Below, piece after piece: positions 8,527-13,398 of a stretch of DNA of 21,241 nt. Under the pieces are notes generated by a model. That model saw nothing but the letters and a program-made list of their open reading frames with translations. It searched no databases and was not told the DNA's origin. Source of the DNA: a virus. The first letter of the stretch is position 1; each line of letters opens with the position of its first letter. The DNA lies in the IMG/VR virus record IMGVR_UViG_3300020463_002171, positions 1-21,241 of that record; one strand, given 5' to 3'. Position numbers and translations under genes: made by a program.

Positions 8527-8895
8527 ATGGCGGAAGCCATGTTGTTATTCATGCTAGTAGTAAAACACGCACTAGCAGACCTAGTTCTACAAAGTCGGCT
8601 TACATCTGGAGATAAAAGTAATTTAAAAAGTTTGAAAGGTTATATACACGCCGGAGATCACGCGGTTTGTACCTTTATAGTCTTGCTGTTTTTTACATCC
8701 TTTCAAAATTCTGTTCTGATAGCAATGCTAGACTATGTTCTACATTTCATCATTGATTTTACAAAAACAAAACTTATGCGATATTATGATATCGAAACAA
8801 ACTCCAAAAAGTTTTGGATATTCCAAGGCGTTGATCAAATCGCCCATTATACTTGTTACTTTATTTACGTTCTTCTCTTGACAAACCTATTATAG
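8527..8895 (+). CDS. DUF3307 integral membrane protein
   Basis: A 122-residue membrane protein of the DUF3307 family. The conserved polar residues fall inside hydrophobic helices: KHALADLVLQ near the start, GYIHAGDHAVCTFIVLLFF, LDYVLHFIIDFTKTK, and FWIFQGVDQIAHYTCYFIYVLLL. Three to four transmembrane helices with buried His and Asp are expected. The biochemical role of the family is unknown. The ATG at 8527 follows GGAGAAGTAA. The coding end overlaps the -35 of the tmRNA promoter (8878). Confidence 0.8.
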   Translation: MAEAMLLFMLVVKHALADLVLQSRLTSGDKSNLKSLKGYIHAGDHAVCTFIVLLFFTSFQNSVLIAMLDYVLHFIIDFTKTKLMRYYDIETNSKKFWIFQGVDQIAHYTCYFIYVLLLTNLL

Positions 8896-8908
8896 TATGT
8901 TATAAATA
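8878..8908 (+). promoter_or_regulatory. Composite promoter for tmRNA-hemC-hemE
   Basis: TTGACA at 8878-8883, 17 bp, then TATAAA at 8901-8906 make a near-consensus sigma70 promoter. The same -10 is the start of TATAAATA (8901-8908), the exact T4 late-promoter consensus. Transcription would begin near 8913, at the expected 5' edge of the tmRNA acceptor piece. The site could therefore be used by host polymerase early and by the phage-modified polymerase late. Confidence 0.75.
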
Positions 8909-8972
8909 CACTACAATGTTGAAGCAATTCAAACACTGGACAGGACCTGGGGGCAGTACCCAGCAGGTCCAC

Positions 8973-9040
8973 CATAAACACTTTGTAGTTACCAGAACCT
9001 GATGGTACCCACAAGTAAGGACAGACGCAAAGTGTTTATG
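8973..9040 (+). other. Spacer hairpin between the two tmRNA pieces
   Basis: CATAAACACTTTG (8973-8985) and CAAAGTGTTTATG (9028-9040) are a perfect 13-bp inverted repeat. They stack on the acceptor stem and close the intervening sequence that must be cut out to give two mature pieces. The repeat begins in the CCA end itself. A smaller hairpin (TACCA/TGGTA) lies within the loop. In host tmRNAs this segment is removed by nucleases that mature tRNA ends. Confidence 0.85.
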
Positions 9041-9130
9041 ATGGGCCTGAACTAGGATCGACTGACAGAATAGTAGAAGCGTGGAGTTGTCCGGATGTAA
9101 GCTCGGTTAACGCGAACAAACGTTATAAAT

Positions 9131-9220
9131 GCAAACGATAATGCATCTAACGTATTTTCTTTCGTGGATTTTTCCAATGCGAGAAAGTACGTGAATGAGG
9201 ATTTCGCCTTAGCGGCGTAA
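9131..9220 (+). other. tmRNA proteolysis-tag reading frame, 29 codons
   Basis: The resume codon is GCA at 9131. The frame begins ANDNASNVFSFVDFSNARKY and ends VNEDFALAA before TAA at 9218-9220. The start (ANDN) is typical of alphaproteobacterial tags, and the hydrophobic ALAA end is the ClpXP/ClpAP degradation signal. Most bacterial tags have about 8-15 residues, so this one is about twice as long, with a central FSFVDFSNARKY segment not seen in standard tags. The reading frame is inferred from the end motif and the resume context. Confidence 0.85.
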
Positions 9221-9277
9221 TCGCTCGGGGTTGGCGGCTTACCTAGCAACAGAAAAGTCGCACTACATGGAGGCTGT

Positions 9278-10105
9278 ATGAAGTTAGGTGTTAGAAGTAG
9301 TAAATTGGCAATAGCCTATGCTAACAAAGTAATAGATGCTCTCCTCTTTCCCGATATAGAAATTGCTCCTATTGTAACTGAAGGTGATGTCAAAAGTAAT
9401 ACATCCATACAGGAGATAGGTGGCAAAGGTGTATTTGTTTCTGAAATAGAAAAACATTTATTAGAAGGCACAATCGATATTGCTGTTCATAGTTTTAAAG
9501 ATTTGCCAGCACAAATGGATGATAAACTTACCATTAGTGCCGTTCTAGAAAGAAATGATCCAAGAGATTGCTACATTGGTAGGCTTTTTCCTAAAGCCAG
9601 AGTAGGCACAGGATCTCCTAGGCGAATAGCACAACTAAAAAATAATTTTACTGTGGACTTTGATATCTTGCCTATTAGAGGAAATATAGATACAAGATTA
9701 CAAAAACTGGATAATGATCAATATGATGCTATAATTTTAGCAGTGGCTGGTTTAGAAGCCTTAGGCTTGGAAAATAAAATTACAAAAATTTTGCCGTTTG
9801 ATAAAATGCTTCCTTGCGTAGGACAAGGTACAATCGCTATCCAAACAAGGAAAGATTATGAATGGCATGATAAGATACAGTCTATATGCCATATGCCCAC
9901 TTACTACTCCGTTATGGCTGAACGAGAAGTACTAAAAGTAGTAGACGGAGATTGTCACACTGCCATAGGTGTGATATCAACATTGGTGGGTGATTGTATT
10001 ATGATCCGAGCATATAATTATGAAAATGATAAGGAATATGCTAACATGTCCAAAAGAACAGATTACATAGAACTTGGTAGGGAAGTGGGTAACAAAATTA
10101 AGTGA
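9278..10105 (+). CDS. hemC: Porphobilinogen deaminase (hydroxymethylbilane synthase)
   Basis: A 275-residue enzyme that joins four porphobilinogens into hydroxymethylbilane in tetrapyrrole synthesis. Catalytic Asp75 is in HSFKDLP (E. coli D84). Substrate arginines are in VGTGSPRR and IRGNIDTRLQKLDN. YDAIILAVAGLEALGL follows, and Cys226 in VDGDCHTAIGV is the thioether anchor for the dipyrromethane cofactor (E. coli C242). All key residues are kept, so it is probably active. The protein is about 35 residues shorter than the usual 310, mostly by trimming in domain 3. The ATG at 9278 has GGAGG 4 nt upstream. Only about 15 nt separate it from the tmRNA 3' end, so the two are probably cotranscribed. 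Its GTGA stop/start overlap couples it to hemE. A tetrapyrrole enzyme of this kind is rare in phages. Confidence 0.95.
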   Translation: MKLGVRSSKLAIAYANKVIDALLFPDIEIAPIVTEGDVKSNTSIQEIGGKGVFVSEIEKHLLEGTIDIAVHSFKDLPAQMDDKLTISAVLERNDPRDCYIGRLFPKARVGTGSPRRIAQLKNNFTVDFDILPIRGNIDTRLQKLDNDQYDAIILAVAGLEALGLENKITKILPFDKMLPCVGQGTIAIQTRKDYEWHDKIQSICHMPTYYSVMAEREVLKVVDGDCHTAIGVISTLVGDCIMIRAYNYENDKEYANMSKRTDYIELGREVGNKIK

Positions 10106-11076
10106 ACAAAAAATTTACTAATGCCTGTGATAGAATACAACAAAAAACTCCTCCTATTTGGTTCATGCGTCAAGCAGGCAGATATCATTCCCATTATAGA
10201 GATTTAAAACAAAAATACACATTTGAATATCTTTGTAAAACTCCTGAACTAGCTGGAGAAGTTGCGTTAGGTCCAATAGTAGAATTTGATTATGATGTGG
10301 CCATCTTGTTTTCTGATATTCTTTTTCCATTAGAAGGCTTAGGTATGAATCTTAGATTTGATCCTGGTCCTAAGTTTCAATTTCATCTAAACGAAAGCAA
10401 TGCTAATCAATTAGATGACATCAGTAAAGCAATTAATTTTATGTCTTTCCAACGAGATGCTTTACTGACAACTAGGACTATGCTGTCCAAAGACAAAAGC
10501 CTAATAGGATTTATAGGAGGACCTTGGACACTTATGAATTATGCCTGTGGTGATAGCAAAGTTTCAGATGAGTTTAAATTAAAATATATGGAAACAGTAT
10601 TAATCCCTTTGCTACAAAAAAATATTGAACTACAAATCAAGGCTGGTGCTGAAAAAGTTATGATCTTTGATAGTGGTTTACAAAACATGTCTACAAGATT
10701 TTTTGATGCTAAGTATTTTCCGTTGCTTAAAAAACTATCTTCAAAAGATACAGCTTACTATAGTAGGAACCTACCACGAAAATGTATAGGCACAATTCTT
10801 CAAACTGAATGGGGTGGTATAGGAGTAGACAGTAAGTTAGACATTGCTGATTGCTTAGAAACAGTTGACACCGGATTTGTACAAGGAAATTTTGACGAAA
10901 AAAAGATGTTATTACCTAAACACAAATTCATGTATGCCATAGAAAAATATTGTGATGATATTTTAAAAACTGATAGGACTGGCTGGGTATGTGGATTGGG
11001 ACACGGAATAGATAAGACAACTCCTGAAGAACATGTTCATTTGTTTATAGAAACAGTTCGTAACAGATTATCTTGA
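10102..11076 (+). CDS. hemE: Uroporphyrinogen decarboxylase
   Basis: A 324-residue enzyme that removes four carboxyl groups from uroporphyrinogen to give coproporphyrinogen. The family signature PPIWFMRQAGRYHSHYR carries R23 and R27. D72 in LFSDILFPLEGLG is the key acid that holds the pyrroles. GFIGGPWTLMNYACG carries Y147, F189-D-S191 fits the F-x-S loop, and GLGHGIDKTTPEEHV carries H301. All match the R37/R41/D86/Y164/S219/H339 set of the human enzyme. It is about 30 residues shorter than usual, with a compact region near 212-235. The start is GTG 10102, overlapping the hemC stop (GTGA). Its last 9 nt overlap the convergent minus-strand gene. HemD, which acts between HemC and HemE, is not in the window. 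Confidence 0.95.
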   Translation: MNKKFTNACDRIQQKTPPIWFMRQAGRYHSHYRDLKQKYTFEYLCKTPELAGEVALGPIVEFDYDVAILFSDILFPLEGLGMNLRFDPGPKFQFHLNESNANQLDDISKAINFMSFQRDALLTTRTMLSKDKSLIGFIGGPWTLMNYACGDSKVSDEFKLKYMETVLIPLLQKNIELQIKAGAEKVMIFDSGLQNMSTRFFDAKYFPLLKKLSSKDTAYYSRNLPRKCIGTILQTEWGGIGVDSKLDIADCLETVDTGFVQGNFDEKKMLLPKHKFMYAIEKYCDDILKTDRTGWVCGLGHGIDKTTPEEHVHLFIETVRNRLS

Positions 11077-11620: not shown

Positions 11621-11815
11621 ATGAGTAAACCCGATGACCAGGGTAAGCTAGAAGTGGCTGTGAGAGTCCTTGGAAATGAATTAATAGCACTCAAAATGAC
11701 TGTAGACGATTTCAAAATGAAATGGTTAGTTTTAGGAGTAGTAACTATTTGTGCCTTAGGTTGGGCGGCCAGTGTATTTGGGCCTGAACTAATGAGTATG
11801 TTCGATGCTGAGTAA
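11621..11815 (+). CDS. Small single-pass membrane protein, 64 residues
   Basis: The N-terminal half is polar and probably helical (KLEVAVRVLGNELIALKMTV). One transmembrane helix follows at about 36-55 (WLVLGVVTICALGWAASVFG), with a short acidic tail (PELMSMFDAE). The start is 3 nt after the previous stop, and the GGGGAG in the previous gene's end serves as ribosome-binding site. Its end overlaps the next start by 11 nt. Candidate roles are an accessory lysis or superinfection-exclusion protein, but no family is recognised. Confidence 0.7.
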   Translation: MSKPDDQGKLEVAVRVLGNELIALKMTVDDFKMKWLVLGVVTICALGWAASVFGPELMSMFDAE

Positions 11816-12002
11816 ACCATGTAAACTACACTTAGAAGAAGTTGGCGAAACAGGCTTCCAACACATGAAAAAGGCTTTGAAAACAGCAGTGAAGTTACAA
11901 CTGTTGGTTCCAGTACTTATTATCCATTCAGTTGCTCCTAGATTTTTTACAAAAACCGCAACTAATGTTTTGAAAGATATATTGGAAGAGCGAAATGAGT
12001 AA
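11805..12002 (+). CDS. Small membrane protein resembling DUF6356
   Basis: A 65-residue protein. LEEVGETGFQHMKKALKTAV leads into LQLLVPVLIIHSVAPRFFTK, a pattern close to the short DUF6356 family: a conserved HxxxAL helix followed by a hydrophobic segment with an I-H-S-x-x-P turn. One membrane segment is expected at about 30-48. The function of that family is unknown. The ATG overlaps the previous stop region by 11 nt, and its own stop overlaps the next start (TAATG), so four membrane or basic genes appear to be translated as a coupled set. Confidence 0.65.
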   Translation: MLSKPCKLHLEEVGETGFQHMKKALKTAVKLQLLVPVLIIHSVAPRFFTKTATNVLKDILEERNE

Positions 12003-12406: not shown

Positions 12407-12850
12407 ATGTATGAATATAAATGTAAAATATTAAGAGTAGTTGACGGCGATACGGTTGATATAGATATTGACTTAGGGTTTGGCATGTGGATGCACAAGG
12501 AACGTGTTAGAATGATGGGGATAGACACACCCGAATCAAGGACAAGAGACAAAGTTGAGAAAAAGTTTGGATTAGCTTCAAAAGCAAGATTGAAAGAACT
12601 AATGCCAGTGGGATCAAAGCAAATACTAAAGACAGAAATTGATAGAAGTGGTGAAGACAGTCGTGGCAAGTTTGGGCGTATATTAGGAGATTTCTTTGTG
12701 GACCAAAACGGAAAAGATTCTAGAGCTACAGAGATACTTATTAGTGAAGGGTATGCTGTTGCATATCATGGACAGTCTAAAGACGATGTTAAAGAAGCAC
12801 ATCTTAAAAATCGCGATAGACTAATATCGGAAGGTAAAGTAACTTTATGA
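12407..12850 (+). CDS. Staphylococcal-nuclease-like (thermonuclease) protein
   Basis: A 147-residue SNase domain. RVVDGDTVDIDIDLG carries the calcium-binding Asp (D15). ERVRMMGIDTPES carries R35, D40, T41 and E43, the same catalytic and metal residues and even the same numbering as mature staphylococcal nuclease. FGRILGDFF carries the second arginine (R91, equal to R87). It should cut DNA and RNA with Ca2+. There is no signal peptide, so it probably acts inside the infected cell, for example on host nucleic acid. AAAGGAG stands before the ATG at 12407. The stop overlaps the next gene (ATGA). Confidence 0.92.
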   Translation: MYEYKCKILRVVDGDTVDIDIDLGFGMWMHKERVRMMGIDTPESRTRDKVEKKFGLASKARLKELMPVGSKQILKTEIDRSGEDSRGKFGRILGDFFVDQNGKDSRATEILISEGYAVAYHGQSKDDVKEAHLKNRDRLISEGKVTL

Positions 12851-13137
12851 AAACAGTGGTGGTAATATTTTTAGCAACATTAATATATGCTGATGATCCA
12901 GACAGGTCAGAGAATTTGTACAGTTGGCAAATGCAGTTTCCAACATTTGAAAAATGTCAACTTTTTTATCAAGAATATGAAGCAAATCTATTAAATGGTT
13001 TGCTAGATCATTCAAAACAAAAATATAAAGCACAATTGAATATAGACTATGTATCTTGTGCTTTAGTTGAAATGGACATGGCACAGAAAGATCCTAAAGT
13101 TATTGGACAAAAAATTATGTATCAGAAAGAAAAATAA
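12847..13137 (+). CDS. Small exported protein with two cysteines (copy 1 of a tandem pair)
   Basis: A 96-residue protein with a short signal-like N-terminus (KTVVVIFLATLIYAD), then a mixed alpha/beta domain. The two remaining cysteines are 34 residues apart (KCQLFY and VSCALVE), which would suit a disulfide in the periplasm. The start overlaps the thermonuclease stop. The next gene has the same layout: signal, FxxPT(F/Y) segment, Cys, helix, Cys. So the two look like diverged duplicates. Function unknown. Confidence 0.65.
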   Translation: MKTVVVIFLATLIYADDPDRSENLYSWQMQFPTFEKCQLFYQEYEANLLNGLLDHSKQKYKAQLNIDYVSCALVEMDMAQKDPKVIGQKIMYQKEK

Positions 13138-13398
13138 ATGAAATTTTTTATTGTTGTATTATTTGCTGTCAACGTAGGCTCATTCGATGGAAGCAGAGAC
13201 ATGTTTGTGTTTACTGAGCCAACTTACACCGACCAAACCCAATGTGAAGCGGATATAACCGATCCACAAGTTATCCCAGGACTAGTCCAAAAACTAGTTT
13301 TGGAATATAGGCAAGTCAAAAGAATTGAATCTGTAATTTGTATTGAAGAAAAAGAATTACGCCGAGCTTTACAAGGTATTAAAGAATCACCAGCATAA
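13138..13398 (+). CDS. Small exported protein with two cysteines (copy 2 of a tandem pair)
   Basis: An 86-residue protein starting directly after the previous stop. The signal-like start KFFIVVLFAVNVGSFDG is followed by FVFTEPTYTDQTQCEADI, a helix (PGLVQKLVLEYRQVKRI) and ESVICIEEKEL. The two cysteines are 32 residues apart, against 34 in the preceding gene, and the order of features is the same, so a tandem duplication is likely. No function can be assigned. It ends 36 nt before the next promoter. Confidence 0.65.
   Translation: MKFFIVVLFAVNVGSFDGSRDMFVFTEPTYTDQTQCEADITDPQVIPGLVQKLVLEYRQVKRIESVICIEEKELRRALQGIKESPA

Follow-up and report, generated by a model that had tools for sequence, protein, structure and literature searches.

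The question raised by this locus is whether a virus carries its own ribosome-rescue RNA and, if it does, what that RNA might do during infection. The window, by which we mean the whole stretch of DNA analysed, is an IMG/VR-type virus record of 21,241 bases with 36% G+C and T4-like phage genes, a 21-kb fragment. A sequence-only reading had proposed that it holds a phage-borne, permuted two-piece tmRNA with the alphaproteobacterial layout, a proposal to be checked against the Rfam covariance models. Both models score the locus above threshold: RF01849 (alpha_tmRNA) matches 8869-9264 with 105.2 bits (E 3.7e-28, gathering score 50) and RF04321 (tmRNA_permuted) matches 8913-9220 with 93.7 bits (threshold 47). 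ARAGORN also calls a permuted tmRNA, at 8882-9311. Positions 8913-9261 are an alphaproteobacterial-type, circularly permuted, two-piece tmRNA that is phage-borne, with the following parts.

8913-8974 (5' end approximate), plus strand: acceptor piece, with the 5' strand of the long-range helix, T-arm, acceptor 3' strand, discriminator and CCA (direct reading, covariance model, alignment)
8947-8951/8959-8963, plus strand: T-arm, spanning 8947-8963 of the acceptor piece
8964-8970, plus strand: acceptor 3' strand CAGGUCC, within the acceptor piece
8971 and 8972-8974, plus strand: discriminator A, then CCA, in the acceptor piece
8975-9042, plus strand: 68-nt spacer, excised in the proposed maturation (direct reading, fold)
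8975-8985/9028-9038: 11-bp spacer stem stacked outside the acceptor helix, absent from the sequence-only reading
9043-9262, plus strand: coding piece, opening with the acceptor 5' strand GGGCCUG at 9043-9049 (covariance model, alignment)
8964-8970/9043-9049: acceptor helix of seven pairs, the third a G·U (U8968·G9045)
8935-8938/9066-9069 plus 8941-8943/9062-9064: long-range helix
9131-9220, plus strand: tag reading frame ANDNASNVFSFVDFSNARKYVNEDFALAA, 29 aa, stop TAA (ARAGORN; absent from the sequence-only reading)
9228-9261, plus strand: 3' H-type pseudoknot after the tag, 9228-9231/9241-9244 interleaved with 9234-9240/9255-9261

The CCA lies before the GGG that starts at 9043, which is the permuted order, and the fold of 8913-9262 has a z-score of -4.3 against shuffles. 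The acceptor helix with its third-position G-U pair, the T-arm, the second long-range helix and the 3' pseudoknot had all been drawn from the letters of the window, and all are borne out, most of them by covariation. We gathered 69 sequences by their shared tag tail (the window and 68 viral contigs), pairing not being a criterion, and aligned 38 distinct long-tag members that were chosen by the tag tail and TCCACCA, again not by pairing. All seven acceptor pairs form in 38/38 of these sequences, and the third is an invariant G·U; double-sided changes occur in three of the seven, for example A-U, G-C, C-G and U-A at 8965/9048. The long-range helix covaries across the long-tag relatives, as does the second stem of the pseudoknot (GGCGACUU/AAGUCGC, GGCAACUU/AAGUUGC, UGGUCC/GGACCA, GGCCACUU/AAGUGGC), and the first pseudoknot stem is present in the alignment fold. 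Another set, of 162 phage tmRNAs picked by regular expression, contains 16 different acceptor combinations and a G·U third pair throughout, in a search that itself required pairing and a U at the 3' side of the third pair.

The tag opens at a resume-codon context common to alphaproteobacteria, with a resume alanine codon, and closes with the Clp-type C-terminus ALAA. Tags in the long-tag viral relatives have 29-31 residues; most viral permuted tmRNAs examined have tags of 9-15, and the commonest length in the tmRNA database is 10 (PMC11915505). Across relatives the dN/dS of the tag is 0.25-0.36, and the closest group shows 9 synonymous and 2 non-synonymous changes where 21% would be expected to be synonymous (p = 3e-5). 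By these codon-level measures, the tag is under protein-level purifying selection, and because its 29 codons are so maintained the locus reads as a working tagging RNA. A scan for the tail pattern VNED[F/Y]A-x-AA-stop matched 68 viral contigs and 1 of 84,980 cellular species genomes, the sole cellular match being an unrelated one-piece tmRNA of the ordinary kind, from a member of the Synergistaceae, whose tag has 9 aa. The long tag therefore looks virus-specific, as judged by this single tail pattern, and the 29-aa sequence has no match among named phages. What appears to be new is a virus-only tmRNA lineage with unusually long, selected tags of 29-31 aa.

The immediate surroundings of the gene add a promoter and a conserved neighbourhood.

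8527-8895, plus strand: DUF3307 membrane protein gene, upstream neighbour (PF11750, 5e-10; phrog_2470)
8878-8908, plus strand: promoter, TTGACA at 8878-8883, a 17-nt spacer and TATAAATA at 8901-8908 (direct reading; predicted start about 8913-8915)
9278-10105, plus strand: hemC, porphobilinogen deaminase, directly downstream (PF01379, 4e-65; closest solved structures are porphobilinogen deaminases)
10102-11076, plus strand: hemE, uroporphyrinogen decarboxylase (PF01208, 2e-57)

The 3' end of the DUF3307 gene lies within the promoter. TTGAC-N16..18-TATAAATA occupies a fixed place, ending 65-72 nt before the CCA, in 89/155 distinct phage permuted tmRNAs, against a background of 11 chance occurrences elsewhere in these loci (4.2 Mb, 0.0026 per kb). 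This is good evidence for a predicted dedicated promoter of the sigma70 type ahead of the phage tmRNA, and a fixed TTGAC-N17-TATAAATA promoter before most phage tmRNAs would be a new feature. A consensus promoter scan did not report 8878-8908, because that scan accepts only -10 boxes with T as their sixth base. The sequence-only reading had described a composite promoter; the promoter is real and conserved, and its T4-late half is a candidate. In a 78-kb relative TATAAATA is rare (7 copies, about half inside genes), was not found upstream of structural genes, and does not occur in the 20-kb piece L280, which has the largest ORFs, including tail-fibre matches. TATAAATA may be a T4-type late promoter or simply a -10 box.

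The gene order nrdA-nrdB-grx-phrog_527-csp-DUF3307-tmRNA-hemC-hemE recurs in nine related contigs, with hemC detected in 8/9. Such conservation bears on the idea that the gene was copied from a host ssrA and has no present role. Its architecture is alphaproteobacterial and the gene therefore came from a cell at some point, and acquisition through prophage excision has been discussed (PMC9004378). A copy with no role is nevertheless very improbable because of the selection signals, namely compensatory changes in several helices and purifying selection on the tag. Moreover, promoter and syntenic position are conserved across divergent contigs, and no cellular genome was found with a tag like it (one tail pattern, 84,980 genomes). 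In marine T4-like phages, then, the tmRNA is a gene that the virus maintains, with a promoter and a selected tag of its own, rather than a stray host copy.

We favor the reading, to which we give a probability of roughly 80%, that a T4-like marine myophage here carries a functional ssrA gene, whose product tags stalled chains via host SmpB during infection. The sequences themselves show the architecture of the RNA, its alanine identity pair, a tag frame under selection, the promoter and the lack of SmpB in the records searched; that the RNA is transcribed, processed, charged and used for tagging, to the benefit of the phage, we infer. The strong sigma70-type promoter would yield a single precursor made up of the acceptor piece, the stem-closed spacer and the coding piece. 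Host tRNA-processing enzymes would excise the spacer, the likely ones being RNase P, cutting at 9043, and tRNase Z, cutting at the CCA end; pairing in the acceptor and long-range helices would keep the two pieces together. In Caulobacter a two-piece tmRNA is functional, and RNase P and tRNase Z are the presumed enzymes that cut its precursor (PMC3985003). Host AlaRS, recognising the G3·U70 pair, would charge the phage tmRNA, which host SmpB and EF-Tu would deliver to ribosomes stalled on broken mRNA, of which a nuclease-rich infection should yield much. The ribosome would append the phage's 29-residue tag, ending ALAA, and the chain would pass to Clp proteases. This model assumes that the phage RNA and its tag are compatible with the SmpB, AlaRS and SspB of the host.

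A search of 27 related records, the complete Melnitz genome included, turned up no SmpB gene, and host SmpB would thus be needed. The sequence-only reading had allowed that the phage tmRNA replaces host ribosome rescue; since SmpB is absent from these records, full replacement is unlikely, and it is plausible that the phage RNA supplements the host system. That the phage brings no SmpB would also suit an RNA whose main effect is to titrate the host protein and thereby inhibit host trans-translation. The reported precedent, cited in PMC4131195 and PMC11915505, is mycobacteriophage DS6A, whose tRNA-like domain is tag-less. Titration needs no tag, however, and here the tag frame, the ALAA end and the amino-acid sequence are kept by selection and the alanine identity pair is invariant, making it distinctly unlikely as the main role. 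A further proposal, suggested for Melnitz (PMC9004378), is amino-acid recycling, in which the phage tag would direct host proteins to degradation. The strong promoter, the phage-specific tag and clpP in several relatives are consistent with such a use, yet tmRNA acts on any stalled chain and no mechanism for selecting host proteins is visible apart from host-mRNA cleavage; we consider this use unlikely. Whether the phage redirects stalled proteins is now testable.

Under the favored reading, tagging of stalled chains through host SmpB, the tagged chains might also meet phage-encoded proteases. ClpP is found in several relatives with its catalytic residues in place. The 78-kb relative (G001) has a long-tag tmRNA together with full-length ClpA and ClpP (L281 12819-15080 and L297 1462-2046), with the catalytic S-H-D residues present in ClpP and both Walker A motifs and the IGF loop in ClpA. 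G027 likewise has ClpP, full-length ClpA and a permuted tmRNA. Neither a ClpP nor a ClpA gene was seen in the window itself, a 21-kb fragment. A phage-private tag-and-destroy route, in which the full genome would supply, besides the viral tag, a Clp unfoldase and a Clp protease specific to that long tag while the host would lend only SmpB and ribosomes, is a tentative and rather doubtful extension. An association of ClpA and ClpP with the tmRNA is not established, because G028 and G036 have both proteins with no permuted tmRNA match in the fragment and Melnitz has a tmRNA without either; since the records are fragments, these counts are not frequencies. In G001, a DnaJ-like ORF (L281 11918-12763) precedes clpA.

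A phage-borne two-piece tmRNA is in itself an already known kind. Buchholz et al. 2022 (PMC9004378) described two-piece tmRNAs in Melnitz and Mosig and in some 50 further phages, most of them marine, and in a 2021 phage database 53/133 distinct tmRNA structures were two-piece by ARAGORN, 50/53 of them marine or aquatic (PMC9004378). Our permuted tmRNA pattern scan found at least 120 viral stretches, and a 2025 database holds 79 phage tmRNA sequences (PMC11915505). The earlier view of phage tmRNAs as rare, with known examples mainly one-piece, is wrong as to rarity, given the two-piece share and the scan. Melnitz (MZ577095-98) and Pelagibacter phage Mosig (PMC9004378) resemble the present case in being T4-like marine phages with a phage-borne, alpha-type, permuted, two-piece tmRNA, and Melnitz also has a TTGAC-TATAAATA promoter visible upstream and lacks SmpB. 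Melnitz is the sole DNA match to the tmRNA itself among named phages, but about 31% of the window tmRNA aligns, at 78% identity, and its tmRNA neighbours are PDDEXK/late-coactivator rather than DUF3307/hemC. Melnitz was reported with a glutamine riboswitch (PMC9004378), whereas none was found in the window, where an Rfam search of the whole sequence (E<=1) returned tmRNA models alone. The alphaproteobacterial two-piece tmRNA (Caulobacter, RF01849) shares the piece order, acceptor and T-arm, the resume-codon context AUAAAUGCAAACGA, the ANDN start and ALAA end of the tag, and the 3' conserved element, and differs in that the window tag has 29 residues. The one-piece tmRNAs of mycobacteriophages and Bacillus phage G (PMC4131195) are also phage-encoded ssrA, in an unpermuted gene of a different lineage. 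We found no publication on the long viral tag or on genes in tmRNA spacers in the part of the literature covered.

The source is most likely a T4-like marine myophage related to the pelagimyophages. HemC and HemE align with solved enzymes over almost their full length, and HemC retains its cofactor cysteine and key arginines. Relatives of the window were reached via the tmRNA and HemE; a single-protein pattern search confirmed no close relative of the window HemC, hemE is present in 16 viral contigs, and the sole hemC/hemE matches among named phages are probable bacterial contamination. The 1.2-kb region has no direct DNA relative among named phages. PMC7029224 reports a pelagimyophage type of the deep ocean that carries GMP reductase and porphobilinogen deaminase, and since the gene content of the window fits this type, the analogy suggests, without proving, a SAR11-type host.

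The spacer of the window has no ORF of at least 20 codons. In relatives, an ATG frame spans at least 60% of the spacer in 45/138 distinct spacers, 39 of them with a Shine-Dalgarno-like motif. The following relatives carry spacer ORFs.

L039 3799-3987, L140 6812-7003, L126 12139-12306, L154 4365-4532: spacer ORFs in relatives
L006 8744-8935, L062 1736-1843, L113 2123-2356, L181 (Melnitz): spacer ORFs in relatives

The spacer ORFs of phage permuted tmRNAs are of many unrelated kinds, mostly with Shine-Dalgarno-like motifs. Two homologous pairs had diverged enough for dN/dS, L062/L015 (dN 0.16, dS 1.55) and L006/L069 (dN 0.09, dS 1.0); with ratios near 0.1 in both, these ORFs are clearly under selection as proteins. 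We thus regard selected small protein genes with putative ribosome-binding sites, in the spacers of other members and not in the window, as a new feature. Two kinds have free-standing homologues: the L006/L069 ORFs encode DUF6356, and the L039 family is nested in 22 contigs and free in 58. In the nested L039 type, an AAGGA motif falls inside the precursor stem and the stop codon comes 4 nt short of the presumed RNase P site; in other spacer ORFs, Melnitz included, the frame crosses that site. This arrangement suggests that translation and maturation may compete. Whether the tmRNA precursor can double as mRNA for a spacer-encoded small protein is open to test in relatives. In L126, L131 and L141, the spacer is filled by a 55-aa, strongly basic, cysteine-containing ORF with no family match in Pfam or PHROGs. 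The window has a free-standing DUF6356 gene at 11805-12002 and, at 12847-13398, a neighbouring pair of small ORFs that begin like signal peptides and contain cysteines, alike in kind to the L039 spacer ORF.
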